Positions 2,127-20,503 of a stretch of DNA of 64,000 nt are shown here, in pieces. The stretch is from a virus. The notes under the pieces are model-generated. The model was not told where the DNA came from and searched no databases. It saw nothing but the letters and a program-made list of their open reading frames with translations. A program made the translations under genes and the position numbers. Numbering within the stretch: position 1 is the first letter of the stretch; the number at the start of each line of letters is the position of its first letter. The stretch is from positions 95,019-159,018 of IMG/VR virus record IMGVR_UViG_3300036715_001368; one strand, written 5' to 3'.

Positions 2127-2131
2127 CAGTC

Positions 2132-3923: not shown

Positions 3924-3925
3924 TA

Positions 3926-5032
3926 GTGGAGGCGAAAGCTGTTATCGGATGGGATCCGTCTGCGTTCGCGGTCATCGCATCGCGAATTCAGATGGCCCTT
4001 CAGACAGGACATGTGTCCCTCGGCGACAGTACGAAGCTGGTCGAGGGACTGTGGCCTGGTGAGGGTGGAGATAGGCATAGCGTCGTCGTCTCGAATGGGA
4101 CCACGGCGCTGGAGCTTGTCTGGCACTTGTTCAGGCCAAGGGTCGTGATTGCTCCAGAGATGACAGTGCCGATGGTGCACTGGTCCGCAAAGAACAGCCC
4201 AAGCCGCCCAACCCTGATCAAGGTTGATGTCGACGACACCCTCTGCGCCGACATCACCAAGATCGATGAAGCGATCGAACTCGCGAAGCTGAATGGATCA
4301 GACCTCTCGGATGTGGCCGTGTGCTACGTCATGACCGCAGGACTCGTAAGTCCGGGACTGGCTGCCGCAGCCGTAAGGTGGCGCTCGCTCGGCGTCAAGG
4401 TCGTGCTCGACATGAGTCACGCGCACGGCGCCACGTACAACGGATACGCTCCGTACACGTGGGCTGACGCAGCTACTTGGTCCTTCTACGCTACGAAGGT
4501 GCTGACCAGTGGCGAAGGCGGCATTGCATGGTTCAGTGACCCTCAGCACGCGGAGGATGCGAAGATCGTCGCGAACCAAGGAAAGAAGCGCGGTACCGGC
4601 AAGTTCATGGTGGAAGGCCGAGGGTATCGGCTCAGCGAGTTCGCGGCAGCCGTCATGGCCTACGAAGTCACCATGGCCCGCACGGTCTACCAGAAGCGAC
4701 AGAGTGTCGCGAAGTCGTACGAAGGTTTCGGGATTCCTGGGTTGCACCAGTTCGTCCCTCAGCTTCAGACCTCGTTCTACAAGTACGTGGTACCCGTCAG
4801 TGCCACCAAGTTCGCTCCAGATTCAGCCGATGCTGTGGAAGAGGCTTTCGCTTCTCTTGGTGTTCGCTGTACTGGTCGCGTTCATGGGTTCTCCGAAAAC
4901 GGAGGCCGCCCATGGTCAATGCCCAGAGCAAAGTTCTGGGCTCAGAATCACGTCTGTCTCCCGGTGGGTCGTCTCATGCATCCGATGATGCTGGAGACGA
5001 TCGAAGAAGCCTGGAAACAGATTCGCAAGTAA
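3926..5032 (+). CDS. DegT/DnrJ/EryC1/StrS-family aminotransferase
   Basis: A 368-residue PLP enzyme of fold type I. NGTTALELVWHLF is the typical N-terminal cofactor-phosphate loop. VVLDMSHAHGA carries the Asp and His that hold the pyridine ring. FYATKVLTSGEGG carries the Schiff-base Lys in the family's T-K-x-L-x-x-G-E-G-G context. These enzymes normally transaminate keto-sugars bound to nucleotides. The start is a GTG 3 bases after the preceding stop. Together with the WbqC proteins, glycosyltransferase and deacetylase downstream it suggests amino-sugar chemistry. The substrate is unknown. Confidence 0.85.
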   Translation: MEAKAVIGWDPSAFAVIASRIQMALQTGHVSLGDSTKLVEGLWPGEGGDRHSVVVSNGTTALELVWHLFRPRVVIAPEMTVPMVHWSAKNSPSRPTLIKVDVDDTLCADITKIDEAIELAKLNGSDLSDVAVCYVMTAGLVSPGLAAAAVRWRSLGVKVVLDMSHAHGATYNGYAPYTWADAATWSFYATKVLTSGEGGIAWFSDPQHAEDAKIVANQGKKRGTGKFMVEGRGYRLSEFAAAVMAYEVTMARTVYQKRQSVAKSYEGFGIPGLHQFVPQLQTSFYKYVVPVSATKFAPDSADAVEEAFASLGVRCTGRVHGFSENGGRPWSMPRAKFWAQNHVCLPVGRLMHPMMLETIEEAWKQIRK

Positions 5033-5066
5033 ACGCTCCGGCATTCAAACAAGAAAGAGACAGGTC

Positions 5067-6047
5067 ATGGCGACAACGTATGTGAGCATCGACAAGATCG
5101 AGACGAAGCCCCAGGTCCGGACGGTTTGGGAGCAGTCTGCTCTCGAAGAGCTGTCCGCCAGCGTGAAGGAATACGGCATCCTGGAGCCCCTGGTCGTTCG
5201 CTCGAAGAGCGGCAAGGACTCTGGGTACATCCTGGAGATCGGACGCCGGCGCCTTGAAGCTGCCAAGATGGCCGGACTGAAGAAGGTCCCCGTCACGGTC
5301 ACCAAGGAGCCGGTCGCGAACACGCCGGTCATCCAGCTCATCGAGAACCTCCAGCGCGAGGACATGAACGACATGGACCTCGCGAATGCGTTCAAGGGAG
5401 TCATGGAGACCCAGAGCCTCACGTTAGACCAGCTCGCCGAGAAGATCTCGAAGACGAAGGGCTTTGTGAAGCAGCGTCTCACGCTGACGAAGGCTGCCCC
5501 TGAGGTTCAGGAAGCCGTCCGTCGTGGCGACATCGAGTTCAGCGGAGCTCGCGCGTTGTGCGGTTTGCCGAAGGAGGAGCAGGCCAATGCACTCCAGGAA
5601 GCTGTCGCTGAGGAGGCGGAGGCGCGCAAGGATCGCGACGAGCGGAAGGCCAAGATGCTCGACCTCCCGGGCGTCGTTCGTGCAGAGTCGGGGGAGACCT
5701 CCGACGAGGAAGAGAAGGGAGAGGCGAAGGGTGAGGCGAATGCCGATTCCGAGGACAAGCAGCGCAAGCAGCGTGTGTCCAAGAAGAAGACGGAGCCGAA
5801 GGCGAAGACGTCCACGGTCAAGCGCATCACGCGCCGCCGCAAACGCGACAAGGCCGGCGCCCAGACCACCGCACGTCCGGTCGCCGAGCGCCTGGAAGAG
5901 AAGACGAAGGAGTGGGTGGCTGGCTTCATCGACGAGGACACCAAGGGCAAGGGCCTCGACGAGCAGCTCAGCGCCCAGAGCGCCAGGAACCTGCTGAAGC
6001 GGTTCACGGCGTACTTGCTCGAACAGCGCGCCCTCATGGTTCGCTGA
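5067..6047 (+). CDS. parB: ParB/Spo0J-family DNA-binding protein
   Basis: A 326-residue protein with the classic ParB order. The N-terminal ParB domain contains QPLV-like LEPLVVR, the CTP-binding box GRRRLEAAKMAG, and ENLQRED. A helix-turn-helix follows (LDQLAEKISKTKGFVKQRLTL). A long charged linker (about residues 185-270) leads to a C-terminal helical region. ParB proteins bind palindromic parS sites and segregate or organise DNA. No ParA is seen. The dispersed CGCAA-N4-TTGCG palindrome is a candidate target. It stands alone in the gap between two groups of genes. Confidence 0.85.
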   Translation: MATTYVSIDKIETKPQVRTVWEQSALEELSASVKEYGILEPLVVRSKSGKDSGYILEIGRRRLEAAKMAGLKKVPVTVTKEPVANTPVIQLIENLQREDMNDMDLANAFKGVMETQSLTLDQLAEKISKTKGFVKQRLTLTKAAPEVQEAVRRGDIEFSGARALCGLPKEEQANALQEAVAEEAEARKDRDERKAKMLDLPGVVRAESGETSDEEEKGEAKGEANADSEDKQRKQRVSKKKTEPKAKTSTVKRITRRRKRDKAGAQTTARPVAERLEEKTKEWVAGFIDEDTKGKGLDEQLSAQSARNLLKRFTAYLLEQRALMVR

Positions 6048-6053
6048 GGTTAC

Positions 6054-6079
6054 GTAGGGGGCCCATCAAGGCTCCCTAC
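6054..6079 (+). promoter_or_regulatory. Ten-pair hairpin after parB
   Basis: GTAGGGGGCC pairs with GGCTCCCTAC (one G-T pair) around the loop CATCAA, just after the parB stop. There is no T-run, so it may be a weak terminator, an RNA end protector or a control element for the next gene. Confidence 0.45.
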
Positions 6080-6146
6080 CACCCCACCCTCAGGAGCCAA
6101 AACGAGGCCACGGGAGGCTTCGGTAGCCATCATGCACGGAGCCACC

Positions 6147-6887
6147 ATGGGCATCCTCGTCAGCGTCCATCAGCCCCAAGTCTTCCATTCGATTCATCTG
6201 CTCAGTCGCATCATCAGATCCAACGTTCACGTGGTCATGGATCTGGCCCAGATCAACCGAAAGGTGGGGATGGCCACCTACCTGCTAGGCAGACGCGACG
6301 AAGATCCGGATCGTTCGCCCATTTCCATGAAGGTGCCGGTAAGCGGCGGAAACAGGGTCTCCTGTCTTGAGGCGAAAATCGGCGTTGATGACGGATGGGT
6401 CGACAAGCATCTCGGAATGTTCGATCACTTGTACTCACGAGCGACGCACTACCAAAGCACGAGACGACAGCTGGCTCTTTGTCTGACCGAATGGAGAGGG
6501 GCCAGTTTCGCATCGTTCGGGACCATGTGCCTTCGGTTTGCCTTTGGAGCCATGGGTCTCGAAAACCCGCCGACAGTCTTCAAGGAAAGCAGCCTACGAA
6601 TGCCTGTCGTCGGCGAAGATGGTACTGACCGCATCGCAGGTCTTGTGCAGACGGTCTACGGAACCGGGTACTACTGCGGAAGGCCAGAAGACAGGCCGTA
6701 TCTGGACGAGGATCGCCTCCGAGCTCGCGGAATCAAGACTCACGCTCAAGACTTCGTTCCACCGCCGGATGGAAACCTATCTTGGGTCCATGTGCTCGCG
6801 AAAGAAGGCCGCCAAGGACTACAGGCTGCCTTGATTGCAGGTCCACGCGACAAAGCAACGGACAGGGTGCTGCACTTTGCGCCGTAA
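6147..6887 (+). CDS. WbqC-family protein (copy 1)
   Basis: A 246-residue protein of the WbqC family, recognised from the N-terminal HQPQ motif (VHQPQVF), the VVMDLAQINRK strand and the later PVSGGNRV segment. Family members occur in O-antigen and other glycan clusters and are thought to transfer acyl or aminoacyl groups onto amino sugars. The start at 6147 is preferred to ATG 6132 because GGAG lies 8 bases before it. A paralogue lies at 8132. The pair brackets an unrelated DNA-metabolism-like gene. Confidence 0.75.
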   Translation: MGILVSVHQPQVFHSIHLLSRIIRSNVHVVMDLAQINRKVGMATYLLGRRDEDPDRSPISMKVPVSGGNRVSCLEAKIGVDDGWVDKHLGMFDHLYSRATHYQSTRRQLALCLTEWRGASFASFGTMCLRFAFGAMGLENPPTVFKESSLRMPVVGEDGTDRIAGLVQTVYGTGYYCGRPEDRPYLDEDRLRARGIKTHAQDFVPPPDGNLSWVHVLAKEGRQGLQAALIAGPRDKATDRVLHFAP

Positions 6888-6901
6888 CTTCCTCAAGACC
6901 T

Positions 6902-6946
6902 ACGGCACCCTCTTGATAGAATCACTACTCCCACTTCCCACTCCCA
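6902..6946 (+). promoter_or_regulatory. Conserved promoter-like element, copy A
   Basis: The core is CCCTCTTGATAGAATC, followed by a C-rich pyrimidine tract. The -10-like TAGAAT is at 6917-6922, about 45 bases before the next start codon. Closely similar elements lie at 25233 and 46239. Confidence 0.6.
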
Positions 6947-6967
6947 ACGGAGAGCAAGGTCATCGAC

Positions 6968-8128
6968 ATGAACGAGAAGCAGACTGGTTTCTTCGAAGCG
7001 CTGGGCGAAAAGCCACCTGAGCCAAAGAAGGCGAAAGAAGAAAAGCGCACTCATCCGACCATCAGGTACGTAGAGGTAGAAGCGCAGACGTCGGCCGGGA
7101 AGTACAAGGTCGACCTATTCGAAGGAGTGTGCTCCTGCTCGGCTCCAGTCGGGGAGGGGTGCTTCCACCTAAGGAAGGCCCGCGACGTCCATCTGAACAA
7201 GTGTGCCAAGACGCGGCACGAAGCCGTCAGTGCGATGCACAAGGAGATTCGACGCGGAGATGTTCAAGCCTCCCTGTACTGGGCGGACATCCTGTCAAGG
7301 CACTCCGACTACTACGTAAAGCGGTACGTTCGTCAGATCGTGGGCGAGGAGACGAGGAACTGGAACCTGTACTGGATGGCCCTTCGTCCAGGCGAGCACT
7401 CGTACCGAGACATGGTCGGAGCGATCGCCAGCTCGAGGAAGAAGTGGGAACACAAGAACGTCTGCCGTCCGTTCAAGGAGCAGCTGAAGGCGTTCTGGGA
7501 CCTCAACGAGAGCAACTACGACTTCAAGCCCGGCGAGGAGCTGATCGAAGAAACGCGCGCCGCTCTGAAGCGTGACGACATGCCATTGATCTTCAAGCTC
7601 TTCGCGGCCATCGAATGCAAGGAAGAAGACGAGACGACCTTGGCTTTCGAACATGTCCTGTGTGAAGAGGTTGAGCATCGGTTCGAAGACATGAAGAATC
7701 TCAAGTTCTTCATGGAGAAGTACCCGGGGTGGACGGGGCGCGACAATTGGGAGAATCGTCTCACCATGATCGAGATGCTCACCGGCGCATGGGACAAGAC
7801 CATGAACGAGTTCATCCACGATCCAGAAGGGGCCTACGAGTACGATGACGGTGCGCTTCTGAAGAAGTTCCCAGACTACGTTTACGACAAGCATCTGATT
7901 CAGGGGCAACGTCGCCTGGAGAAGTACTTCGACAAAATTGGTCCGATGAAACCTATGCCAGACAAGCTCGACATGCGCTGGTCAGGTCAATTTATGGGCG
8001 TCTCTTGGAGGTATGCTGCGTACGTCCAGTTCGGCGACAACTACGTCAACGCCAGGTGGGAGGACGTGAAGTGGTCGAAGGAGTTCTGGGAGTACACGCT
8101 GTCCATGCAGAAGGCTTGTGAGGGGTAA
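6968..8128 (+). CDS. SWIM zinc-finger protein with RarA/MgsA C-terminal-like domain
   Basis: A 386-residue protein. Residues 55-67 form a SWIM zinc finger, C-x-C-x7-C-x-H (CSCSAP...GCFH), after a short charged tail. Residues about 88-125 (SAMHKEIRRGDVQASLYW...VKRYVRQIVGEE) strongly resemble the helical C-terminal domain of the RarA/MgsA clamp-loader-like ATPases, but no AAA+ ATPase domain is present. The rest is helical and unrecognised. A role at replication forks is inferred from the two domains. It begins a new unit after promoter-like element A and sits between two WbqC paralogues. Confidence 0.65.
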   Translation: MNEKQTGFFEALGEKPPEPKKAKEEKRTHPTIRYVEVEAQTSAGKYKVDLFEGVCSCSAPVGEGCFHLRKARDVHLNKCAKTRHEAVSAMHKEIRRGDVQASLYWADILSRHSDYYVKRYVRQIVGEETRNWNLYWMALRPGEHSYRDMVGAIASSRKKWEHKNVCRPFKEQLKAFWDLNESNYDFKPGEELIEETRAALKRDDMPLIFKLFAAIECKEEDETTLAFEHVLCEEVEHRFEDMKNLKFFMEKYPGWTGRDNWENRLTMIEMLTGAWDKTMNEFIHDPEGAYEYDDGALLKKFPDYVYDKHLIQGQRRLEKYFDKIGPMKPMPDKLDMRWSGQFMGVSWRYAAYVQFGDNYVNARWEDVKWSKEFWEYTLSMQKACEG

Positions 8129-8131
8129 AGA

Positions 8132-8875
8132 ATGGAACGCGTTCACGGTCTTGTCATGGTGCAGCAGCCCCAGGTCTACCCGAAGTTGCACCGAATTCAT
8201 CGGTGGCTTCGAGTAGAGCGATACGTCTGCATGGACGACGCGCAAGTTGATCGTCCTGGTGGTATGGCTCGCTTCAGCTTCGTGCACAACAACGAGCCGC
8301 ATCGAATCTCGATTCCGATTACGGGCGGCAAGCGGGTCGCATGCAACCAGGCTAAGGTTTATCTGGACATCGGCCACATGCGAACGATCAAGGAGCACGT
8401 TCGAGTCACCCTCGGCAAGATGAAGTACGGTCAGGAGGTGAGCGAGTTCGTTGCCAAAACGCTAGACATGGCTCCACACTCGCTGTCGTTCGCCGAATGG
8501 ACGGAAGCATGCATGACGTATCTGACGATCTTGCTGTGCGAGCTGCCTGGATTCCAGGGGCCAGCCCGGTTCCTGGAGTCGAGGATTCCGTCCGTAAAGA
8601 CGTCCGGTCCATCGAATCGGATCCTGAGCGTCGTGAAGCTTGTTGGGGGTACCGCGTACTACACAGGCAGTCGCGGCTCGCCCAGCCGTGACTACCTTGA
8701 CGAGGTGACCTTCGCCGCTGAGGGGATCAAGATCCTGGAGCAGCAGTTTTACACGAACGACTTTCCAGTTGGTCTTGGCGACCGGACGTTTCTGGAGACC
8801 TGGGCAAGGTATGGTCTGACAGGAATGCTGGACATCCTGAATCGCGGAACGCTCGACAACAAGGAAGTCACCTGA
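8132..8875 (+). CDS. WbqC-family protein (copy 2)
   Basis: A 247-residue paralogue of the 6147 gene. The two share the start pattern (VQQPQVYPKLHRI versus VHQPQVFHSIHLL), the VCMDDAQVDRPGGMAR strand, and PITGGKRVACNQAK. GAGGGG lies just before the start. It overlaps the glycosyltransferase gene by TGATG. This arrangement supports a shared pathway in which the two WbqC proteins modify different positions or substrates. Confidence 0.75.
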   Translation: MERVHGLVMVQQPQVYPKLHRIHRWLRVERYVCMDDAQVDRPGGMARFSFVHNNEPHRISIPITGGKRVACNQAKVYLDIGHMRTIKEHVRVTLGKMKYGQEVSEFVAKTLDMAPHSLSFAEWTEACMTYLTILLCELPGFQGPARFLESRIPSVKTSGPSNRILSVVKLVGGTAYYTGSRGSPSRDYLDEVTFAAEGIKILEQQFYTNDFPVGLGDRTFLETWARYGLTGMLDILNRGTLDNKEVT

Positions 8876-10455
8876 TGCAACGACGCGTTCTCCTTGTGCC
8901 GCAGCTCGGACTTTCTCGCGCTCGGAGCGATTCTTCCTATCAGTTCATGATGGATCTGATTCGCTCATCGAGAGAGATGGATCGGAAGTTCTTCTTCTAC
9001 ATGATCCTGCCAGAGTGGGCCCAGGACCCGTGGCCTGATGAGCCGAACCAGTTCACGATCACGGTGCCGATGAACAAGGACTTCTGGATGAACGAGATGA
9101 TCGGCGTTCCGGCTGAGCCTCTCGCAGAAGCCTTTTGTCGTCGTGGCGGCAAGTACATCGTCGACATGCTCTACACGGAGATGGTTCGACCAAGCTGGTA
9201 CATGGGGCAGGTGATCAGTGACTATCGGTCGCGTCACAGTTTGCCAGTGTTCATCACTGATCCGATCACCATCGGCGGCTGGGTAAATCGAACATGGGAG
9301 CACCGGGTGGCGAACGCATACTCGTACCTGCACGGGTACCCGCTTGCCACGTCGACGTTCGAGGAGAATGGCTACCGAGAGCTGGTCACTGACTTCTTCA
9401 GGCCCGCGTACATCGACAAGTTCAACCAGCGCATCCACCGGGTGCCGGTCGCGATCGACATCGCCTCGTACCAGAAGGTTAGAGACGAGGAACAAGGCAA
9501 CAAGCACGAGAAGGTCTCGCTCTTCTGCGGCATGCGATTCAACGAAGACAAAGGCATCAAGTTCATCATGGATGTCTTCCGTACGCTCTACGCCAGCGGC
9601 CGTGACATCTACGTGTGCTCGACGACGGGGACCGATCAGATCAAGGGCACTCAGCAGATCCCGGACAAGGACATGTCGATGCTCAAGACGATGAAGTTCG
9701 GATGCCCTCGCGACGAGTACGTTCAAGAAGCTGCCAGGTGCCACGTCTTCTTGTCCGCGTCGAAAGTCGAGTCGTTCGCGATGCATATCGTTGAGCAACT
9801 CACGCTCGGCCTCATCGGAGTCCTGCCAAATGCTCAGTGGGTATGGGACTGGATCCCGAAGGAGTATCCGTTCGTCTACGAGCCTGGCGATCGCGTCGAG
9901 GCGTACACGATGATCTCATGGGTCATGGATAACTACGAGCGGGCCTACGAGATGGCCCGACCGTTCATGGACTATGTCGCGAAGGCTTACGACTCGAAAG
10001 AATCCTCTAAAGCGATCTTTGATGCGTTCAACCAGAGGATCGACGAGCGATTCGTTGACTACACGAAGAAGCCCCTGCGCTTCTCGAAAGGTGGCAAGTT
10101 CCGGTACCCGTTCCGCCTTGAGGTCTGTGACGCAGCAGATTCACTGGGCGAGAGCTTCTCGATGCCGCAGCTGCTCCAGGTGCTCAAGGCGCGGATGAAG
10201 GGCACAGACGTCGGCGTCTTCACCAAGCTCGGAGGACCGAGACTGGGCGTGCCTACGCTCTACGACATTCGGATGATGTTGGAGTCGTACGGTTGGACGG
10301 ATGCGTGCGACGGACCCAAGGTCAGGTTCGTGCGCGGGGACAACGTCATCGTTCCGAGCCACGCCTACGCAGATCAGATCGCTGCTGCCAAAGCAGGAAA
10401 GATTGCCCACGCCGCTGAAGCTGCTGCCGACGAAGAGGAGGATCTCGATGTATAA
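8875..10455 (+). CDS. GT-B glycosyltransferase (family 4-like) with C-terminal extension
   Basis: A 526-residue protein. The C-terminal Rossmann half of a GT-B enzyme is clear: VSLFCGMRFNEDKGIKFIMDVF, then DEYVQEAARCHVFLSASKVESFAMHIVEQLTLG, where the E-S-F and following Glu form the nucleotide-sugar binding motif. Residues about 420-500 form an extra domain (SMPQLLQVLKARMKG...VPTLYDIRMMLESYG) that could be a small helical DNA-binding module, and an acidic tail follows. The enzyme should move a sugar from a nucleotide donor to an unknown acceptor. The extension is unusual and could indicate a nucleic-acid acceptor. Confidence 0.75.
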   Translation: MQRRVLLVPQLGLSRARSDSSYQFMMDLIRSSREMDRKFFFYMILPEWAQDPWPDEPNQFTITVPMNKDFWMNEMIGVPAEPLAEAFCRRGGKYIVDMLYTEMVRPSWYMGQVISDYRSRHSLPVFITDPITIGGWVNRTWEHRVANAYSYLHGYPLATSTFEENGYRELVTDFFRPAYIDKFNQRIHRVPVAIDIASYQKVRDEEQGNKHEKVSLFCGMRFNEDKGIKFIMDVFRTLYASGRDIYVCSTTGTDQIKGTQQIPDKDMSMLKTMKFGCPRDEYVQEAARCHVFLSASKVESFAMHIVEQLTLGLIGVLPNAQWVWDWIPKEYPFVYEPGDRVEAYTMISWVMDNYERAYEMARPFMDYVAKAYDSKESSKAIFDAFNQRIDERFVDYTKKPLRFSKGGKFRYPFRLEVCDAADSLGESFSMPQLLQVLKARMKGTDVGVFTKLGGPRLGVPTLYDIRMMLESYGWTDACDGPKVRFVRGDNVIVPSHAYADQIAAAKAGKIAHAAEAAADEEEDLDV

Positions 10456-10717
10456 GCTCGGGGAGAGAAAGCTGACCAGTACGCAGTACGAGACGTTGAA
10501 AGCGATTGATCAGTACATCAAGACGATGGGGCATGCGCCCACGCATCATGAGCTCGCCGAGGTCATGAGGCTTCCGAATGCGCGGGCCGTAGCGAATCGT
10601 ATCGACGCGCTCGTCAACAAGGGTTACCTGGATCAGACGAAGTTTCAGCCACGAGGGATTCGACCCTCGAAGAAGGCAACGTCCGAGTATCCAGAGCTGG
10701 GAAGAATTGCATCATGA
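10448..10717 (+). CDS. LexA-type winged-helix DNA-binding protein
   Basis: An 89-residue protein that matches only the N-terminal domain of LexA: LTSTQYETLKAIDQYIKTMGHAPTHHELAEVM, then a recognition helix with RAVANRIDALVNKGYL. The peptidase half is missing, so it would be a small repressor or regulator that cannot self-cleave. GAGGAGG lies before the ATG. It overlaps the glycosyltransferase and the radical SAM gene, so it is translated with them. Confidence 0.75.
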   Translation: MYKLGERKLTSTQYETLKAIDQYIKTMGHAPTHHELAEVMRLPNARAVANRIDALVNKGYLDQTKFQPRGIRPSKKATSEYPELGRIAS

Positions 10718-11817
10718 GACCGAGTCGCAGTGACATCGAGCAGATCTTCGAAGGACGTCGCACCGTTCTGTACGCGCACGACCTCCGAGAGAGCCTGCTC
10801 ATGGACAACGTGTCCCCATTGAGCTGCGACTTCACGCTTTCGGATGCTTGCCAGCACAAGTGCCACTTCTGCGTCGACGATCGCAACGAGGTTTCTGGCC
10901 CGATCATGTCCGAGGAGGACGCCTTTCGGATCTTGACGCAGCTTCGCAAGCTTGGCGTGATGAGCGTGAACTTCGAAGGCGGAGGCGAGCCAACCATCGC
11001 TCCCGCTTTCGTGGCGGCCATGCGCCATGCTCACGGCAGCGGGATGCACGTCGGGCTCATCACGAACGGCGGCATGCTTCACAAAGAGGAGATTGCAAAC
11101 ACGCTCCTCGACTGCGCACGCTACGTGCGCATCAGTCTCGATGCGGTGTCCCCGGAGACTCACGAGACGAGTCACGGCGTGAAGGGGCAGTTCAACAAGA
11201 TCGTCGAGTCCATCAAGGAGCTCGTTCGACGTCGAGACGCGAAGACCTCGTCGCGGTCACCGTACGAAAAGCTTCCGGTGATCGGACTTGGCTACCTCAT
11301 CGACGAGAACACGTTCCAGGGCATGCACCACGCCTTGGCACTTGGGGAGCATACGGGTGTCGACTACGTGTCGTATCGACCCATGCACAGCGACAAGAAG
11401 TATGGTGGGTACTACCTTCGAGACGACATGAACTTCGCGCACTCGCAGGCGTTGAAGAGGGTCTCCGAAGTGGAGGGTGGTTCGCGAGTCTACGCAGCGA
11501 TCGACTGGCCCACCTCGAAGTATGTGCCCACCAAGAAGTGTTTTGCTCACCGAGGCAAGATCACGGTAGGAGCGACGGGCGACGTCTACACGTGCTGTAA
11601 CAAGCGGTACAACCAGGACTACAGCTTCGGTCAGCTCAGGCCTGACGTGCCGCTCGAGCGCCTATGGAGCGGGCCGAAGCGCAAGGACGTCATCAAGCGC
11701 CTGGAGAACGCCCTTCAGGACATGAGCCAACACTGCTCCTCTTGCAACAGCGACGATCTGAATCGAACGTATGTGGAGATGAAGCGTCCGAACCTGCATC
11801 ACCGCTTCATGGGTTGA
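10714..11817 (+). CDS. Radical SAM protein with SPASM-like cysteine tail
   Basis: A 367-residue radical SAM enzyme. Cys46-x3-Cys50-x2-Cys53 (CQHKCHFC) binds the catalytic 4Fe-4S cluster. VNFEGGGEPT is the SAM-binding GGE motif. The C-terminus has further cysteines (KKCFAH, YTCCNKR, HCSSCNS), as in SPASM/twitch enzymes that bind extra clusters. Such enzymes modify peptides, sugars or nucleotides by radical chemistry. The substrate is unknown. It sits in the modification cassette after the LexA-like regulator. The stop is TGAA. Confidence 0.85.
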   Translation: MRPSRSDIEQIFEGRRTVLYAHDLRESLLMDNVSPLSCDFTLSDACQHKCHFCVDDRNEVSGPIMSEEDAFRILTQLRKLGVMSVNFEGGGEPTIAPAFVAAMRHAHGSGMHVGLITNGGMLHKEEIANTLLDCARYVRISLDAVSPETHETSHGVKGQFNKIVESIKELVRRRDAKTSSRSPYEKLPVIGLGYLIDENTFQGMHHALALGEHTGVDYVSYRPMHSDKKYGGYYLRDDMNFAHSQALKRVSEVEGGSRVYAAIDWPTSKYVPTKKCFAHRGKITVGATGDVYTCCNKRYNQDYSFGQLRPDVPLERLWSGPKRKDVIKRLENALQDMSQHCSSCNSDDLNRTYVEMKRPNLHHRFMG

Positions 11818-11819
11818 AG

Positions 11820-11939
11820 ATGGAGAAGCAGACGTCGTTGAACCTGGACTCGCAAGAGTCGATCGACATCATGACTCGCGAGGAGTTTGGGTACGCGAGA
11901 GCAGCGCTGCATACCCAACGGAGCTTCCGCTCTCAATGA
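11820..11939 (+). CDS. Small unidentified protein
   Basis: A 39-residue reading frame (MEKQTSLNLDSQ to RSFRSQ). It is supported mainly by its fit: it starts 2 bases after the radical SAM stop and overlaps the next start by ATGA. There is no recognisable motif. Another frame across this stretch is also open from 11819 into the DUF1643 gene, so the coding assignment is uncertain. Confidence 0.35.
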   Translation: MEKQTSLNLDSQESIDIMTREEFGYARAALHTQRSFRSQ

Positions 11940-12690: not shown

Positions 12691-12702
12691 GGACGAAGAG
12701 CC

Positions 12703-13155: not shown

Positions 13156-13946
13156 AGTGGTGCGACCATACGTTCAACCCGTGGGCTGGATGTGCGAAGA
13201 TCAGTCCAGCTTGTAAGTCATGTTATGCGGAAAACATCTCGCATAGGTTCGGCTGGAATGTATGGGGCACCGAGTCCCCTCGAAGGTTCTTCGGCGATAA
13301 GCACTGGAACGAACCGGTGAAGTGGGACCGCGCCGTCAAGGATCCCAACAAAAGACCCAAGGTCTTCTGCGCGTCGATGGCTGATGTATTCGAGCTGCGG
13401 AGCGATCTTGATGTCCACCGCGATCGCCTGTGGAAGCTGATCGAAGCTACGCCTGGCCTCGTTTGGCTGCTGCTCACGAAGCGTCCAGAGAACGTGAAGA
13501 AGATCTATGGAGAGACGCTACGAGCCAACATGTGGCTCGGTACGACGGTCGAGAACCAGAAGTACACGTCACGCATCGAGAGCCTGTTGAGAATCAACGC
13601 TCCGGTGAGGTTTCTGTCATGTGAGCCGATGCTGGGCCCGATCGACTTCAACACGTGCGGCATTTGGCATCCGGGAATGCATGACATGTACCTGGAGGGC
13701 GTTCACTGGGTCATAGCAGGAGGAGAGTCTGGGCCAGGAGCTCGTCAGCCAAGCCTCGACTGGTATCGAACGATCCGCGATCAGTGTGGGTACGCCAAAG
13801 TGCCGTTCTTCTTCAAGCAGCACGGTAACTGGGCGCCTGGAGCGAACGGGCTTGTGCGGCTCCGGAGTAAGAAAGACGGAGGCCGCCTACTGGATGGCGT
13901 CGAACACAACGGCGTCCCCCTCGACCAGAACGGGAATCCGCGATGA
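13134..13946 (+). CDS. Phage Gp37/Gp68 family (DUF5131) protein
   Basis: A 270-residue member of the DUF5131 family. It has the diagnostic IEWCDHTFNPWAGCAKISPACKSCYAE, FCASMADVFE, WLLLTKRPEN, LGTTVENQ, FLSCEPMLGPI and WVIAGGESGPGARQ. The first Cys motif resembles radical SAM proteins (C-x7-C-x2-C) and the fold is thought to be related. It is widespread in phages and its reaction is unknown. The start at 13134 has GAGGG upstream. Confidence 0.9.
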   Translation: MGQKTSIEWCDHTFNPWAGCAKISPACKSCYAENISHRFGWNVWGTESPRRFFGDKHWNEPVKWDRAVKDPNKRPKVFCASMADVFELRSDLDVHRDRLWKLIEATPGLVWLLLTKRPENVKKIYGETLRANMWLGTTVENQKYTSRIESLLRINAPVRFLSCEPMLGPIDFNTCGIWHPGMHDMYLEGVHWVIAGGESGPGARQPSLDWYRTIRDQCGYAKVPFFFKQHGNWAPGANGLVRLRSKKDGGRLLDGVEHNGVPLDQNGNPR

Positions 13947-14386
13947 ACCGCAACGGCATGGAGGAGTGGGAGGTCAACGTTCAGCAACGTCCGGCCCGCG
14001 AGAACCACCACCTTGTCTGTCCTGAGTGCGGCGCGAAGCTCGTTCTTCGTTCTCGTAGGGACGGGAAGTGGTTCTACGGATGCGAGATGTGGATGGACAC
14101 GAAGTGCGACGGCGGGATCGGGGCGCATCCAGACGGCACACCGCTCGGGATCCCGGCGAACAAGGAGACGAAGAAGGCGAGGGTCGAGGCCCATCGATCC
14201 TTCGATCGCCTTTGCACCGAAGGGAAGATGTCGAAAGGCAAAGCCTACAAGTGGATGAAGAAGACGTTGCAGCTCGCGAACGGCATGAGCCACATCGCGA
14301 TGATGACGAAGAGTCAGTGCGAGGCACTGGTGGCGGCAGTAGACACGAAGCTCGGGAAGAAGGAACAGCATGTCGACGACAGATGA
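13943..14386 (+). CDS. Topoisomerase-like zinc-finger (DUF3268-like) protein
   Basis: A 147-residue protein. The N-terminal half has a topoisomerase-I-type C4 zinc finger: CPECGAKLVLRSRRDGKWFYGCEMWMDTKCDGGIGAH, followed by PDGTPLGIPA. The second half is helical (GKAYKWMKKTLQLA...MTKSQCEALVAAV). The family is common in phages next to DNA-modifying genes. Its stop overlaps the methyltransferase start by 17 bases. Confidence 0.75.
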   Translation: MNRNGMEEWEVNVQQRPARENHHLVCPECGAKLVLRSRRDGKWFYGCEMWMDTKCDGGIGAHPDGTPLGIPANKETKKARVEAHRSFDRLCTEGKMSKGKAYKWMKKTLQLANGMSHIAMMTKSQCEALVAAVDTKLGKKEQHVDDR

Positions 14387-16010
14387 AAAGGTGTACACGC
14401 TCCTCTGCCCATTCGGAGGGATTGGCGCAGGAGCCTTGGGATTCCTTCGTGCTCGGTTGAAGATGCTCGGAGTCGAGGCTCGGTGGAAGGTCATCGGCAA
14501 CATCGACAACGACAAGCTTGCCTGTGAAGACTTCGAGTACCTGACGAAGTCGAAGGCCGTCTGCGCCGACATCCAGGCGATGACGGCCAAGGAGCTGATC
14601 GCTCACTTCGGTCCGGAGCCACCGGACGCTGTCTTCAGCAGCCCGCCGTGCAAGGGCTTCAGTGGTCTGCTCTCGGAGAAGCGGTCGAAGACGGACAAGT
14701 ACCAGAAGATGAACCGGCTCATCCTCGACTGGATGGAGCTGATGTTCAAGGCATGGCCAGAAGGCCCTCGGCTCGTACTCATCGAGAACGTGCCCAGGAT
14801 CCAGTCACGCGGCGCTCCGCTTCTCCGCCAGATCAAGGAGATACTGAACGCGCACGGTTACGTCTGCCACGGCAGCACTCATGATTGTGGTGAGCTCGGT
14901 GGTCTCGGCCAGCATCGTCAACGCTTCCTGCTCGTTGCTCGAAAGTATAAAAAGGTCCCTGCGATTCTGTTTCAACCGATCAAGAAGCGGGTGAAGGCGT
15001 GCGGCGAAGTCCTGGAGAAGCTGCCCATGCCGAATGATCCGGCTGGCGGCCCCATGCACGTTCTTCCAAAGGTCTCGTGGTTGAACTGGGTCCGGTTGTC
15101 CCTCATCCCAGCTGGTGGAGACTGGAGGGATCTCCCGGGCGTGCTCGAGGAAGGACAGGAGCGCCGATCCAAGTTCAAGCGTAAGGCCGTTGAGAGCTGG
15201 TACGCACCAACGGGGACGATTGGCGGACCGGGCTCGAATGGTGTCGAGAATGTCGCGGATCCGCGCGTCACGTCCATCTCGAACAGCCAGAACACTCACC
15301 AGAACAAGTACGCCATCATCGAGTGGGACAAGGCAAGCAAGACTGTCATCGGAGCGGCGAGGCCAGGCTCAGGAGCCCTGAACGTGGCTGACCCTCGCAT
15401 CCCCAAGGACATCAAGCTCAACATCGTGATGCCACCTGCGGTCTGCTACGACCATGGCTATGGGGTCCTGGACTTCTGGAATCAGCCATCCTCCACCATC
15501 GCCGCGGGGTCAGCTGTAGGTCAGGGCGCGTATTCGGTAGCTGATCCTCGCCTGATCCCGAAGGCAGAGCCGTACAAAGGAACGTACGGAGTGCTCGACT
15601 GGAAGGAGGTGGCGAAGACCGTCACCGGCAACGCTCGTCTCGATACGGGCACGTTCGCCGTGGCGGATCCGCGAGACAACCGTCCGCACTGGATTATCAA
15701 CAAGCTCACGGACAAGCCACCGTTCGTCCCAGTCATCGTAGCCGAGGACGGAACGTGGCACCGACCGCTAACCACCCTGGAGCTTGCCGCCCTTCAGTCG
15801 ATCCCGACAGAAGTGGACGGGAAGCCCTTGAAGCTCGCCGGGAACAGCATCTCTGGCTGGCGCGAGCGAATCGGGAACGCCGTTCCGGTGGACACGGCTG
15901 AAGCCATTGGCGTAAGGATGCTCACGGTCCTTCTGGAGAGCGATACGAACGCATTCATGCTGTCTTCTGGTGGAGCGGTATGGGTGGAGCCAGCACGGCT
16001 CGACTCGTAA
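14370..16010 (+). CDS. C5 cytosine DNA methyltransferase with repeated target domain
   Basis: A 546-residue methyltransferase. FGGIGAG (about 15-21) is the SAM motif I; SSPPC with Cys94 is the catalytic PC motif IV; ENVP (139-142) is motif VI; QHRQRF (181-186) is motif VIII; GNAVP near the end is motif X. Between VIII and X lies a long target-recognition region with four repeats ending in VADPR and alternating with YGVLDW/TVTG-like segments. It should transfer a methyl group to C5 of cytosine, protecting DNA from host or phage nucleases. No cognate restriction enzyme is seen. Confidence 0.9.
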   Translation: MSTTDEKVYTLLCPFGGIGAGALGFLRARLKMLGVEARWKVIGNIDNDKLACEDFEYLTKSKAVCADIQAMTAKELIAHFGPEPPDAVFSSPPCKGFSGLLSEKRSKTDKYQKMNRLILDWMELMFKAWPEGPRLVLIENVPRIQSRGAPLLRQIKEILNAHGYVCHGSTHDCGELGGLGQHRQRFLLVARKYKKVPAILFQPIKKRVKACGEVLEKLPMPNDPAGGPMHVLPKVSWLNWVRLSLIPAGGDWRDLPGVLEEGQERRSKFKRKAVESWYAPTGTIGGPGSNGVENVADPRVTSISNSQNTHQNKYAIIEWDKASKTVIGAARPGSGALNVADPRIPKDIKLNIVMPPAVCYDHGYGVLDFWNQPSSTIAAGSAVGQGAYSVADPRLIPKAEPYKGTYGVLDWKEVAKTVTGNARLDTGTFAVADPRDNRPHWIINKLTDKPPFVPVIVAEDGTWHRPLTTLELAALQSIPTEVDGKPLKLAGNSISGWRERIGNAVPVDTAEAIGVRMLTVLLESDTNAFMLSSGGAVWVEPARLDS

Positions 16011-16050
16011 CCTACGTTCGTTGCATGCAAGCGTCACCGCGTTGTAGAGT

Positions 16051-16073
16051 TTCCTTCGTACCTACCGAAGGAA
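16051..16073 (+). promoter_or_regulatory. Hairpin covering the oxygenase ribosome-binding site
   Basis: TTCCTTCG pairs perfectly with CGAAGGAA across a 7-base loop, and the 3' arm contains the AAGGA ribosome-binding sequence of the gene at 16080. The TTGCATGCAA palindrome at 16021-16030 lies just upstream. Folding would hide the ribosome-binding site. Confidence 0.55.
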
Positions 16074-16079
16074 CGATCG

Positions 16080-16877
16080 ATGTACAGCTCGAATGGCGTT
16101 GCACTATCAAAGTCGTGCACCGCACCCATGGTCGACAGCAGTGACCTGCTCGGGGATCAAGAGGCGCTTCGCAAGCGCTACGCAGAGGACGGCTACCTGA
16201 AGTTCTCGGGTCTGCTCCCAAAGAAGCGGGTACTCGGTATCCGGAAGCTGTACTTCGACCTGTTCAACTTCAAGTCGGATGGGTGTCCTTCACATGGAAC
16301 GCCAGGCCATCCAGCTTTTTCGTTTGTTCGGTCGGAGGTCTTCGATTCGTTCGCCAAGCCAGAGGAGATGTTTCAGATCTCTGAGGCGCTCTTGCAGATA
16401 GATTCAGTGGTTCCGCTCAAGCGGAGACCGCTCCGTCACTTCAAGAAAGGACACGCTGCCTCGCGGGCGCATGCGGATCTGAGCTACGTCGATCAGGGCA
16501 CCAAGGACGTCGTCACGTTCTGGGTGCCGATCGGGGACTGTCTCGCAGATACGGGGTCTCTCACGTACCTCGAAGGATCGCACAAGATCGGCATCGACAA
16601 GCTGCGTCAGACGATGAGCGATCGCACCGACAGTCCGAATGACAAGCGGCGCCTCAGCCACGATCTGCAAGCACTTGCGGAACGAACGGGAAGGAAATGG
16701 CTGGTCAGCGACTTCGAGGCTGGAGACGTGGTCTGCCACTCTCCGTACATCATCCATGCTTCGCTCGACTGTCGCACCGATGAACCGCGGCTATCCACGG
16801 ACCTTCGCTTCGTGCGGCTCGGAGACGAGATCGACCCGCGCTGGTTGAAAGACTGGCGAGCAGACGACGGTTACTAG
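16080..16877 (+). CDS. Phytanoyl-CoA dioxygenase (PhyH)-like Fe(II)/2-oxoglutarate oxygenase
   Basis: A 265-residue protein with the PhyH facial triad. His131-x-Asp133 (HADLSY) and the distal His226 (YIIHASLD) would bind Fe(II). The Arg in STDLRFVRLG would bind 2-oxoglutarate. DTGSLTYLEGSH is a typical PhyH loop. It should hydroxylate a small molecule, lipid or modified sugar/base; the substrate is unknown. It follows a leader of about 70 bases with a hairpin over its ribosome-binding site, so its translation may be controlled. A near copy of the dispersed palindrome lies at 16666. Confidence 0.8.
   Translation: MYSSNGVALSKSCTAPMVDSSDLLGDQEALRKRYAEDGYLKFSGLLPKKRVLGIRKLYFDLFNFKSDGCPSHGTPGHPAFSFVRSEVFDSFAKPEEMFQISEALLQIDSVVPLKRRPLRHFKKGHAASRAHADLSYVDQGTKDVVTFWVPIGDCLADTGSLTYLEGSHKIGIDKLRQTMSDRTDSPNDKRRLSHDLQALAERTGRKWLVSDFEAGDVVCHSPYIIHASLDCRTDEPRLSTDLRFVRLGDEIDPRWLKDWRADDGY
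16666..16679. repeat. Dispersed palindrome, near copy (one change)
   Basis: TGCAA-GCAC-TTGCG, inside the PhyH-like gene. Confidence 0.6.
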
Positions 16878-16952
16878 CTATAGATCGCTCGTTTTCGAAC
16901 AGAGACGGTTGTATGAATCGGTCATGGACAAGAGTCCGGACAGGTTCTTCTG

Positions 16953-17738
16953 ATGAGAGTTCTGGTAGTCGCTCCGCATGCGGATGACGAAGTGCTCGGA
17001 GCTGGTGGGTACATGGCGAAGCTCGCCAACGCTGGTCACGAGGTCTTCGTCTTGATCATGTGCGATCGTTCAGAGGGGCATTCGTACGATCCGCAGTTGA
17101 TCGGATTCCTTCGCGATTGCGCCCTGAAAGCAAACGCGATTCTTGGAACGAAAGCGGTGTTCTTCGCTCACCTTCGCGAGGAACGACTTGACACGTCACT
17201 TTCGGACGTCATCGTTCCGATTGAGAAGCACATTGCCATGATCCGTCCATCACTTGTGATGCTGCCGCATCGAGGCGACGTGAACCAAGATCATCGAGCG
17301 GTCTTCGAGGCTGGGCTTGTGGCCACGCGCACGCTCGGTAACTGGGAAGACAAGTACACCGAGAACGAGCTCCGCGGCGCCGCTTCTCCGTACAAGCAGA
17401 AGGAGAAGACGGCTCGACGTTACAACGTGCAGAAGGTCCTCTGTTACGAGGTCCCCTCAACGACAGAGCAAGCTCCGCCAGGGTGGGGGTTCAATCCGAA
17501 TGTCTTCGTCGACATCACCGACACTCTGGAACAAAAGGTAAGAGCTCTCGCTTGCTACACCAGCGAGACGGATGCCTTTCCGTTTCCTCGATCTCTCGAA
17601 GGTATGCGAGTGGTCGCTAGGTTCAGAGGTATGGCTGCCTCCTTCGAAGCCGCCGAGGCGTTCGAGTTGAAAAGGGAGATCGTGTTCACTACCAACGGAA
17701 GCAGTACGACGAAGAGTAAGGTGAAGAGGAAGCGATGA
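16953..17738 (+). CDS. PIG-L (LmbE-type) N-deacetylase
   Basis: A 261-residue zinc deacetylase of the PIG-L family. APHADDE (7-13) supplies zinc-binding His and Asp residues, and LPHRGDVNQDHRA (about 105-116) supplies the second metal-binding His. These enzymes remove N-acetyl groups from GlcNAc-linked molecules. It would expose an amine that the neighbouring GNAT proteins could acylate. It heads a tight group with overlapping starts (17735, 18249, 19124, 20500). Confidence 0.9.
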   Translation: MRVLVVAPHADDEVLGAGGYMAKLANAGHEVFVLIMCDRSEGHSYDPQLIGFLRDCALKANAILGTKAVFFAHLREERLDTSLSDVIVPIEKHIAMIRPSLVMLPHRGDVNQDHRAVFEAGLVATRTLGNWEDKYTENELRGAASPYKQKEKTARRYNVQKVLCYEVPSTTEQAPPGWGFNPNVFVDITDTLEQKVRALACYTSETDAFPFPRSLEGMRVVARFRGMAASFEAAEAFELKREIVFTTNGSSTTKSKVKRKR

Positions 17739-18265
17739 GTGAAAAGATCGGAGAGTTCAGGATCTCGAACCTCGTTCCTGAGGACTACGCATCGATCATC
17801 TCTGTCGAGATATCGGCCTTCAGTGGAGACAAGGTGATGGGCGTCGAAAACATCGCGGACCTGTACGTGTACGACGGACTCAGGTTCTCGCTCAAAGCCA
17901 CTGTGGACGACAGTGACATGGTTGGCTACATGCTCGTGCACGTGATGGCGGAGAACGAGAGTCGTCGCATGCTCTACCTGGCTGACTTCGCCGTCAGACC
18001 AGAGTTTCAACGCATGAACGTCGGATGGCAGATGATGCGGTCGTTCATGTGCGCGATGAAAGAAGAGAGGGTTGTTACGCTCTTCGACATGGAGCTTGTC
18101 GAAGGCTCACACAAGATGATGGAGAAGCGTCGCGACGACATATCGAAGCTCGGGTGGGAGAAGCTGAGCGAGCACAAGCTCTCCGACTATCACGGCGATC
18201 AAGACCATGCCTGGTACCACCTGTACGCGCTCTGCCCGAAAGACACCGATGCTGGTTCAAGATGA
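17735..18265 (+). CDS. GNAT acetyltransferase
   Basis: A 176-residue GNAT-fold protein. ISNLVPEDYASIISVE is the usual N-terminal strand and helix. MLYLADFAVRPEFQRMNVGWQMMRSFM contains the acetyl-CoA loop in the form Q-x-x-x-x-G-x-Q. It should acetylate an amine from acetyl-CoA. It overlaps the deacetylase by ATGA, which suggests a deacetylation/re-acylation pair. Confidence 0.85.
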   Translation: MSEKIGEFRISNLVPEDYASIISVEISAFSGDKVMGVENIADLYVYDGLRFSLKATVDDSDMVGYMLVHVMAENESRRMLYLADFAVRPEFQRMNVGWQMMRSFMCAMKEERVVTLFDMELVEGSHKMMEKRRDDISKLGWEKLSEHKLSDYHGDQDHAWYHLYALCPKDTDAGSR

Positions 18266-19124
18266 ACACTTGGTGGACTCGCTCTTCCTCGATCTGAAAG
18301 AGAAGAACGCGCAGCACGTAGCGGACACCCTCTGGTATCGAAAGGCCATCACTGGTCGCGCCAAGCCGTTTGTGTTCATTGGTCGACAGAGTCATGTGTT
18401 CGCGTGGCAGCTCGAAAGCGGAGCCTCTGAAGTGTGGGGCGGCGAGACGTTCGTGGAGCAAGATGCGCTTCCGATGAACGAGGTCGACGCTTGTCAGTTC
18501 GTCGAGGAAATGCCGAAACCTTTTTGGTCGTTCACGTCTGGCGCCCATGAGATCTTGAAGCCAAAGCTCCAGGACGAGTACTCGTCGATGCGGATCGATC
18601 TTTGTCCATATCGATCGATGGAAGAGTACGAGGCCACGGTCTGGTCGAGCAAGCGTCGCCGAAACCTGACTCAAGAACTTCGCCAGTACGACAGGTTCAG
18701 TAGATCGCTGTCGACACTATTTGATGCGCGGGATCTGTCATGGTTGCTGGACCTGAATGCGACTGTGTCCATCAAGATGGGCGAGGTTCCGTACTACGAG
18801 AGTGGCAACAGGCTCGGAGGCTTGTGCAAGCTTCTCGGAACTGCGTCTGCGCTGGGATTCTATCGGTGCCTCAAGATCTACGATGGCGAGCGCCTCGCGG
18901 CGGCGGAAGTGTTTGTCGAGCATGCGCCGACCAGATCGATCCTGTCATTCATGGGGCACGCGCTTCCTGAATACTCAGGACTCGGAAAAGTCCTGTACAA
19001 AGAAGTGATCGCCAGAGCCATCAGCGTTGGAATCGAAACGGTCGACGTTGGAAATTACAAGAGCGACATCAAACTTCTGTTCAAGTATCGACCGCTGCCA
19101 ACGTACGACGTGGAGATTGTGTGA
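18249..19124 (+). CDS. FemAB/GNAT-like acyltransferase
   Basis: A 291-residue protein. The C-terminal half carries a GNAT-like domain: GFYRCLKIYDGERLAAAEVFV, then LSFMGHALPEYSGLGKVLYKEVIARAISVGIETVDVG. This is the arrangement of FemAB-type and Mig-14-like transferases that use charged tRNA or acyl-CoA. The N-terminal half is unassigned. I prefer ATG 18249 to the ATG at 18207 because the longer form would overlap the upstream gene by 59 bases. A substrate amine made by the deacetylase is plausible. Confidence 0.65.
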   Translation: MLVQDEHLVDSLFLDLKEKNAQHVADTLWYRKAITGRAKPFVFIGRQSHVFAWQLESGASEVWGGETFVEQDALPMNEVDACQFVEEMPKPFWSFTSGAHEILKPKLQDEYSSMRIDLCPYRSMEEYEATVWSSKRRRNLTQELRQYDRFSRSLSTLFDARDLSWLLDLNATVSIKMGEVPYYESGNRLGGLCKLLGTASALGFYRCLKIYDGERLAAAEVFVEHAPTRSILSFMGHALPEYSGLGKVLYKEVIARAISVGIETVDVGNYKSDIKLLFKYRPLPTYDVEIV

Positions 19125-20503
19125 TGAAAAAGGTCTTTGTTACAGGAACATGGGGCCGACCGAACGGACTCGAAGCCAACATCTATCGTTCAACCAACGG
19201 AGACGCACTCGTTCGTCGATACCCGGACTTCGATGAGTACGACGTTTGGAAGAATGCACATACCACCGCGGATCACGATCCGTTTGGTGACGGCGAGAAG
19301 AGAGACTGGGCCAAGTACTACGGTCACATTGACTCGATGATCAAGAGCGGCAAATGGGACGCGATCATCTGCTGTTTCCTCGACGATGCCATCACTGGAG
19401 GGATGTCCAAGTACGCGGAGAAGATTCCAACGCTGTGCGTGAACAGAGAAGCGGCCAGGCTCGAGGACGACCGATGGTTTGCTCGATCGGTTACGTCGAA
19501 GTACGGCGTGGCCGCTTCTGCAATGGAGCTCGTCCGGACAAAGCAGGAGGCGCTTGCCTTCCTGAGTAACGACTGCCCGTGGGAGGGATGCGTTGTGAAA
19601 CTGCTCGACTCCACGACACATGAGGTCGTTGCGGAGATCTACGATACGAAGAAGGAAGCCATCTCGGCCATCGAGTCGCGGCCAGACGCTTGGTTTCCGA
19701 GCGTCATCGAAGAGAAGCTGTCTGGTCACGAAGTCGCGTTCTCGGTGCTCGTCAGCCACGAAACAGACCAGATCATCCCGATGGTCACCGATTTCGAGTA
19801 CACGCGGTTGGCCACCGGAGACCTGGGTCGAGAGACGAGCGAGATGGGCTCGCACGACATCGCTGGAGTCTCTGACAGGGTGCTCCAGGAAATCTTTTGG
19901 CCAATGATGCCTTGGTTCAAGGAGGTCGGCTACACGGGCTGGCTCGATGCGAGCTGCATGTACAATCCGAAGACAGACACGCTAACGGTTTTCGAGTTCA
20001 TGACCAGACTTGGAAGTAGCCAGTTCGAGCTGGCGATGACACTGCTCGGCACGGACTTCTCGGAAATCGTCCAGAGGATGCACCGAAAGGCCCTTCGTCC
20101 AGACGATGTCCGGTGGCGGTACAAGCACGGTGTAGGCGTTGTGGTCTGCGACAGCTACGCGATGACCGGAGAAAGTGACCGCCGACACATTGTTTCCGGT
20201 CCGGTGAAGGAACTGATCTACGGTCGCGTCTTCGCCGACTACGGCTTCCAGACGCTGTCGAGAATGAACTGTGTCTTCGACAAGCAGGAACGCATGGTGA
20301 CGAGAGGCGATCGCGTCTACAACGCCATTGGAGCTGGTGACACGTTTCCCATCGCGAAGAAGCATGCCTACAGCGTTGCTCGGTTCTGCAAGTTCACGGG
20401 CGCGTACTACAGGACAGACATCGGCTATCGCTGGGAAGACGATGAGGCGAAGGGCGCGCTGGGTGAGAGCGGGGTCCTTCCGAGAGGCTGGTACCGAGAA
20501 TGA
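19124..20503 (+). CDS. PurD-like ATP-grasp ligase
   Basis: A 459-residue ATP-grasp protein. CVVKLLDSTTHEVVAEIYD, VIEEKLSGHEVAFSVLVS and PMVTDFEYTRLATGDLGRETSEMGSHD match the ATP-grasp core of phosphoribosylamine-glycine ligase (PurD) in order. PurD joins glycine to an amine through an acyl phosphate. This homologue lacks a recognisable PurD N-terminal domain and has a different C-terminus. It probably couples an amino acid or small acid to an amine in the modification pathway. The start ATG overlaps the preceding stop (TGATG). Confidence 0.75.
   Translation: MKKVFVTGTWGRPNGLEANIYRSTNGDALVRRYPDFDEYDVWKNAHTTADHDPFGDGEKRDWAKYYGHIDSMIKSGKWDAIICCFLDDAITGGMSKYAEKIPTLCVNREAARLEDDRWFARSVTSKYGVAASAMELVRTKQEALAFLSNDCPWEGCVVKLLDSTTHEVVAEIYDTKKEAISAIESRPDAWFPSVIEEKLSGHEVAFSVLVSHETDQIIPMVTDFEYTRLATGDLGRETSEMGSHDIAGVSDRVLQEIFWPMMPWFKEVGYTGWLDASCMYNPKTDTLTVFEFMTRLGSSQFELAMTLLGTDFSEIVQRMHRKALRPDDVRWRYKHGVGVVVCDSYAMTGESDRRHIVSGPVKELIYGRVFADYGFQTLSRMNCVFDKQERMVTRGDRVYNAIGAGDTFPIAKKHAYSVARFCKFTGAYYRTDIGYRWEDDEAKGALGESGVLPRGWYRE

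Follow-up and report, generated by a model that had tools for sequence, protein, structure and literature searches.

The phage locus analysed here is best read against a few described systems. In 7-deazaguanine modification, DpdA is usually accompanied by DpdB, a member of the ParB superfamily (PMC6392294, the CRB2 paper), and ParBc proteins have been reported near the DNA carboxymethyltransferase CmoX (PMC12783734). The pathways to bacillithiol (BshA-BshB-BshC) and mycothiol (MshA-B-C-D) combine a glycosyltransferase (GT) of the GT4 fold and a PIG-L deacetylase with a later amide ligase and GNAT. A further group is formed by cultured phages such as DLP3/DLP5, RcZahn, RHph_Y1_11 and VH2_2019/KarBoss, which share a GT-ParB core near the terminase, with DegT, PIG-L, WbqC, epimerase or methyltransferase genes in varying sets; these have been annotated as genes but not presented as a system for modifying DNA, and the literature searched gave no account of WbqC, PIG-L, ParB and GT acting together in phage DNA modification. 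A locus of this kind occurs in the terminal 64 kb of the 159,018-base virus record IMGVR_UViG_3300036715_001368 (positions 95,019 to 159,018, hereafter the window, in whose coordinates all features are given), where its genes lie on the plus strand. The locus is real, conserved and modular, and is expanded here relative to the other loci examined. We consider it probable that this cassette hypermodifies the phage's own DNA with a deacetylated, re-acylated or aminoacylated amino sugar placed on a base. Another IMG/VR record matches the region at 100% identity; the assembly repeats, yet this is not an independent phage.

The GT4-type retaining GT-B glycosyltransferase (8875–10455) gives a weak Pfam match (6e-4) but is strongly supported by its predicted structure. 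The AlphaFold model (pLDDT 83.9, pTM 0.84) has BshA with UDP/GlcNAc as its top Foldseek match in the PDB (3.7e-13), and MshA is also among the matches. The protein carries an extra C-terminal domain, at about residues 410–490, which is predicted to be winged-helix-like: modelled alone (pLDDT 74), it shows helices and strands in the succession typical of a winged helix, and winged-helix proteins make up many of its best, though not significant, matches in Foldseek. In tblastn, the tail alone gave matches at chance level only, and the first GT profile proved too diverse for scanning.

A GT of this family and a homolog of the ParB protein named here ParB2 lie together in the window locus, the latter at 21081–22109 (Pfam 8e-11; phrog_26387 1e-49; homologs in 48 related loci). 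Of 80 IMG/VR loci retrieved with a ParB2 profile, the better ones were mapped together with cultured phages in a comparison of about 55 loci; in most related loci the GT and ParB2 occur as partners. The recurring order is helicase and recA, exonuclease, small genes, g126, sometimes a second ParB (ParB1), variable sugar genes, GT, ParB2, a candidate small terminase subunit (TerS), TerL and portal. Among the 43 loci with enough upstream sequence for counting positions, the GT is at most three genes from ParB2 in 26, and 31 have it anywhere in the locus. TerS or TerL follows ParB2 within three genes in 26. The order GT-ParB2-TerS-TerL is also found in cultured phages of Stenotrophomonas, Rhodobacter, Agrobacterium, Rhizobium and Vibrio. 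A comparison of gene order in other phages had been proposed as a check on the original prediction, which was made from the DNA letters; the order is partly conserved, so that an arrangement conserved nowhere can be set aside.

Gene content, order and motifs can be read directly from the window. The DegT/WecE-type pyridoxal phosphate (PLP) sugar aminotransferase (3926–5032; Pfam 7e-34), with homologs in nine related loci, has AHBA synthase, perosamine synthase and ArnB among its PDB matches and keeps its PLP lysine motif, in FYATKVLTSGEGG. It is followed by ParB1 (5067–6047), with a ParB N domain and a helix-turn-helix (Pfam 1e-17 and 3e-16), a homolog of which lies immediately upstream of the GT in two related loci (L019 and L023). 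Two WbqC proteins flank the gene U386, the first at 6132–6887 (Pfam 7e-11) and the second at 8132–8875 (Pfam 2e-10), the latter overlapping the GT gene by one nucleotide; a WbqC scan of IMG/VR returned nothing beyond the same phage and the contig of one related locus (L022). After the GT, a gap of 258 nucleotides precedes a radical S-adenosylmethionine (SAM)/SPASM enzyme (10714–11817; Pfam 6e-17), with an intact CxxxCxxC motif and distant matches to SkfB, DesII and cytosylglucuronate decarboxylase. Further downstream are a PhyH-type Fe(II)/2-oxoglutarate oxygenase (16080–16877; Pfam 3e-14; HxD intact) and a PIG-L/BshB-type sugar N-deacetylase (16953–17738; Pfam 7e-20), whose motifs HADDE and HRGDVNQDH are intact and whose PDB matches include diacetylchitobiose deacetylase (4e-11) and BshB1 (2e-8). 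A GNAT N-acyltransferase (17735–18265; Pfam 9e-6), a GNAT_6 acyltransferase (18207–19124; Pfam 8e-6; protein start MPGTTCTRSARKTPMLVQDEH), whose true start is probably nearer 18249, and a PurD-like ATP-grasp amide ligase complete the set. The ligase (19121–20503) matches Pfam (2e-12), TIGR00877 (1.2e-32, under the cut-off) and GAR synthetase in the PDB (5e-20); its scan returned the same phage alone from IMG/VR and none from GTDB. Between it and ParB2 lies U192 (20500–21078), a 192-residue protein with a hydrophobic N-terminal part and no Pfam or PHROG match. Every enzyme named in the original prediction is thus present with Pfam support, the PurD-like ligase also with NCBIfam support, and the key motifs of DegT, the radical SAM enzyme, PhyH and PIG-L are intact.

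The coupling by overlap that had been described was likewise confirmed. Besides the single nucleotide shared by the second WbqC gene and the GT, overlaps of four nucleotides join PIG-L to GNAT, GNAT_6 to PurD and PurD to U192, and two nucleotides separate U192 from ParB2. By spacing, two coupled units can be recognized: U386-WbqC-2-GT and PIG-L-GNAT-GNAT_6-PurD-U192-ParB2.

The gene U386 (6968–8128) encodes a protein with a SWIM-like CxCx(n)CxH motif and a RarA/MgsA C-terminal-like domain, as judged from its motif and family profile. Top PDB matches of the profile are MgsA/RarA C-terminal domains (3ctd, 6e-4; 3bge, 0.06), and family members match SWIM (4e-7) and MgsA_C (6.6e-13 and 1e-8); the window protein itself has no Pfam match. 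Loci with this family carry PIG-L or DegT in 11 cases out of 13, against 1 out of 27 without it (Fisher 3.8e-7, a descriptive figure in view of shared ancestry and cut-off flanks). One locus recovered by the U386 profile alone (L161) likewise contains WbqC, PIG-L and ParB2, together with two GTs.

The original prediction did not recognize the combination as a described phage system; it does have parallels, given that cultured phages hold smaller versions of the same locus. Vibrio phage VH2_2019 carries PIG-L, WbqC, a U386-family protein, a methyltransferase, WbqC, GT, ParB2 and the terminase, and Stenotrophomonas phage DLP3 carries PIG-L, WcaG, DegT, a methyltransferase, GT, ParB and the terminase; the loci of Rhodobacter phage RcZahn and Rhizobium phage RHph_Y1_11 resemble that of DLP3. 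Nearest in order to the window are L019 and L023, with g126-ParB1-GT-ParB2 and no intervening sugar genes, and L022 reads g126-U386-WbqC-GT-PIG-L-ParB2, with TerS and TerL next. WbqC, U386, PIG-L and GT co-occur repeatedly (L022, L032, L161, VH2_2019), the same gene families recur near GT-ParB2 in unrelated phages, and the pooled neighbours in related loci include UDP-GlcNAc 2-epimerase, UDP-sugar dehydrogenase, NAD epimerases and methyltransferases. The core of the cassette is neither unique nor due to chance, since compact versions exist in VH2_2019, DLP3/DLP5 and RcZahn. A different elaboration is seen in L020, where two GT4-type, two GT10-like and one GT2 enzyme occur with PIG-L and a different, unrelated ATP-grasp protein; these genes lie between U386 and ParB2 (912–10247 of that locus), possibly as an oligosaccharide version of the cassette. 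In DLP3, the methyltransferase within the homologous sugar locus (15594–16274) is annotated as Erm and reported to confer erythromycin resistance (PMC7326821); its position suggests a role in the sugar locus too.

The most plausible pathway would start with DegT which, together with host or WbqC enzymes, would supply an unusual amino sugar, unless UDP-GlcNAc is drawn from the host. With its winged-helix-like tail, ParB2 and the SWIM/RarA-C-like protein keeping it on the DNA, the BshA-fold GT would attach the N-acetylated sugar to a base handle, and PIG-L would then remove the acetyl group to leave a free amine. The succession of a BshA/MshA-type GT and PIG-L suggests precisely such a transfer of an N-acetyl amino sugar followed by deacetylation. 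PurD joins an amine and glycine by an amide bond, and GNATs acylate amines; a re-decorated amino sugar would therefore be the natural class of product, the GNATs re-acylating the amine and/or the PurD-like ligase coupling an amino acid to it. Further tailoring would fall to the PhyH, radical SAM and WbqC enzymes, and the bulky product would hide the DNA from host nucleases. In this scheme the substrate, the order of the steps, the target and the benefit are inferred, the enzymatic steps being suggested by the enzyme families and the carrier of the sugar by the genomic partners.

The target had been suggested to be either a host glycan or phage DNA, and DNA is now ahead with more support, thanks to the GT tail, the linkage of ParB2 with the terminase in relatives and the arrangement in Arthrobacter phage Mufasa8. 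In this phage a relative of ParB2 (8e-10) lies between a DpdA-like gene and FolE, QueC, QueD and further preQ0 genes, and these genes occupy the genome end that bears GT-ParB in the Arthrobacter phages Kitkat, BeatusComedenti and DanielleIgnace. In the Mufasa8 region (L141, 9247–13682), one type of DNA modification may have replaced another while the place in the genome stayed fixed.

Several points weigh against DNA as the target. No enzyme that would provide a base handle was found: Tet_JBP (PF12851) has no match in the genome or its relatives, the thymidylate-synthase-type hydroxymethylase (PF00303) and TGT/DpdA (PF01702) have none in the genome, and CmoA (TIGR00740) gave no match either; divergent enzymes could escape all of these searches. 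The GT tail has no significant Foldseek match (best E 0.08), the ParB2 of the window is far from the candidate TerS, so that the packaging linkage rests on relatives, and the roles given to radical SAM and PhyH are guesses. ParB proteins also serve in partition, we know of no cultured relative with modified DNA, and DegT, WbqC and PIG-L are equally typical of surface-glycan pathways.

This last point, which extends to epimerases, leads to the alternative that the cassette alters a host surface glycan, such as the O antigen or the lipopolysaccharide (LPS) core, for instance so as to exclude other phages. LPS modification was proposed for the homologous GT by the authors of the DLP3 study (PMC7326821), and clusters of this kind are believed to occur in cyanophages (PMC7824862). 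Yet Pfam recognized none of the cassette genes as belonging to a flippase, polymerase or O-antigen acetyltransferase family, and the GT has a winged-helix-like tail and ties to ParB2, the terminase and the SWIM/MgsA_C family. We regard a surface target as unlikely.

A second alternative is that there is no single pathway, but a GT-ParB core with independent accessory genes gathered by recombination. PhyH was not found in the related phages searched, and the PurD-like ligase has no homolog among the related loci. Moreover, the two halves of the cassette are split by a block running from DUF1643 to a methyltransferase, unrelated to sugars, so that the decoration cassette of the original prediction is supported as an amino-sugar cassette but is not uniform. 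The DUF1643 protein (11936–12409; Pfam 1.7e-51) has a homolog in DLP3 (DLP3_128, 5e-25) located elsewhere in that genome, and its membership of the cassette is doubtful. HNH endonuclease, DUF5131 and DUF3268 genes follow (12703–14386; Pfam), and then a cytosine-C5 DNA methyltransferase (14370–16010; Pfam 1e-18). Together with ParB1, U386 and ParB2, these are additions to the genes first listed. The methyltransferase, which shares about 40% identity with its matches in Pseudomonas phages H66 and LKA5 and lacks a counterpart in seven cultured cassette phages, is for these reasons not a secure part of the pathway, and is likely an ordinary, common phage type. Of the two marks of CmoX, an SPPC motif and an Arg that binds Cx-SAM, it has the SPPC motif, while its motif X, GNAV, keeps the Asn (position judged by eye); as a candidate CmoX it was set aside as improbable, with no CmoA match and a canonical-looking motif X. 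That the methyltransferase and PhyH substitute for TET is a guess, both being absent from the cultured relatives tested. Against such a gathering, PIG-L through ParB2 form one coupled unit, and WbqC, U386, PIG-L and GT recur jointly in the four loci mentioned, so we give this explanation a low probability.

Glycosylation of a virion protein, for example of capsid or tail, would fit a GT lying beside the terminase and near structural genes in relatives, and the WcaG product was found in DLP3 virions by mass spectrometry (PMC7326821). However, the virion preparation contained bacterial proteins too, and possibly non-structural ones (PMC7326821), and it is hard to see what ParB2 and the SWIM/MgsA_C protein would do in glycosylating a protein; we regard this option as very improbable. 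Equally little weight falls on a soluble mycothiol- or bacillithiol-like glycoside serving as cofactor, decoy or toxin, for although the set of GT, PIG-L, amide ligase and GNAT fits mycothiol biosynthesis and the GT fold is nearest to BshA/MshA, the ligase is PurD-like and not a recognized cysteine ligase, BshA and MshA have no ParB or terminase linkage, and their chains of about 360–400 residues lack the winged-helix-like tail.

The edges of the locus deserve a brief description. At its left lies g126 (2997–3923), a conserved protein of 308 residues with no assigned function (phrog_17202, PHROG 1.8e-26; homologs in 13 related loci), and within the conserved upstream gene run a 255-residue protein (1359–2126) has two Cpn10-like stretches. 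The candidate TerS (54651–55448; homologs in 17 loci, no Pfam family), which sits between ParB2 and TerL in many relatives, is displaced in the present genome, where the order is rearranged and ParB2 does not immediately precede TerS and TerL. Homology to TerL starts at the beginning of the record (record positions 32–1348) and looks truncated, so the genome is probably circular or permuted, with the record broken within its terminase gene. The small gene between ParB2 and TerL was considered as a ThyX that could provide the handle, and rejected, having no Thy1 match and being probably TerS. The Thy1 match belongs instead to a ThyX-like protein (29194–30096) with swapped segments (profile 60–190, then 15–58), as in a circular permutation, which is 40% identical to DLP3_107, a neighbour of the DLP3 terminase; this permuted family occurs in more than 1000 phage records and is hence generic. 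A weak match to deoxynucleotide monophosphate kinase (T4 gene 1-like, DNMK) is found at 33241–33978. The ThyX-like and DNMK-like genes could alter the nucleotide pool, in a way not specific to the locus. The genome also encodes a protein with a Tad2-like (Thoeris anti-defence) domain, a family that is also found near the GT-ParB2 locus in a relative.

Beyond this phage, it may tentatively be proposed that a class of phage DNA hypermodification exists in which a BshA-like, DNA-bound GT, paired with a ParB protein, puts an N-acetyl amino sugar on a base by way of a handle not yet described, and PIG-L with ATP-grasp or GNAT enzymes yield an aminoacylated or acylated sugar, phages swapping tailoring genes around the GT-ParB core. 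If so, many glycosyltransferase, PIG-L, WbqC and DegT genes of phages, so far unexplained, would unite as one modular system, and both amide-linked and deacetylated sugars would join the known chemistry of phage DNA. DLP3, VH2_2019, RcZahn, Klevey and DanielleIgnace would offer cultured phages for direct testing of the new modification, and ParB-like proteins could have a common role as partners of base-modifying enzymes.

How the cassette differs from the described systems can now be specified. The pairing of a BshA/MshA-fold GT with a PIG-L deacetylase, typical of mycothiol and bacillithiol, is present, but the cassette has a PurD-like ligase, DNA-linked partners and a winged-helix-like GT tail; among its genes, the PurD-like ligase is the only one recognized where a cysteine ligase might be expected, MshC and BshC models not having been searched genome-wide. 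In T4, with its glucosylated hydroxymethylcytosine, and in the TET-dependent phage systems, GT-based hypermodification acts on cytosine; here there is no PF00303 hydroxymethylase or Tet_JBP match, and the C5-methyltransferase expected of a TET system is present but of a type common in unrelated phages. Phage YerA41, whose DNA contains thymidine oligosaccharides (PMC9023294), likewise has glycosyltransferase genes, and its DNA bears a sugar-like adduct of about 1 kDa, made by an uncharacterised pathway. The CmoX/CmoY carboxymethylcytosine system (PMC12783734) shares a C5-methyltransferase homolog, an amide ligase and ParBc neighbours, but the present genome has no CmoA match, its motif X reads GNAV, and its ligase is a PurD-like ATP-grasp enzyme, whereas CmoY is an AMP-forming ligase. 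With the DpdA system (PMC6392294; Mufasa8) the locus shares a related ParB that neighbours the base-modifying enzyme, in Arthrobacter phages at one and the same end of the genome, but a GT stands in the place of TGT/DpdA, which has no match here. Finally, relative to the DLP3/DLP5-type loci, the window adds the PurD-like ligase, two GNATs, PhyH and radical SAM, and its terminase is not adjacent.

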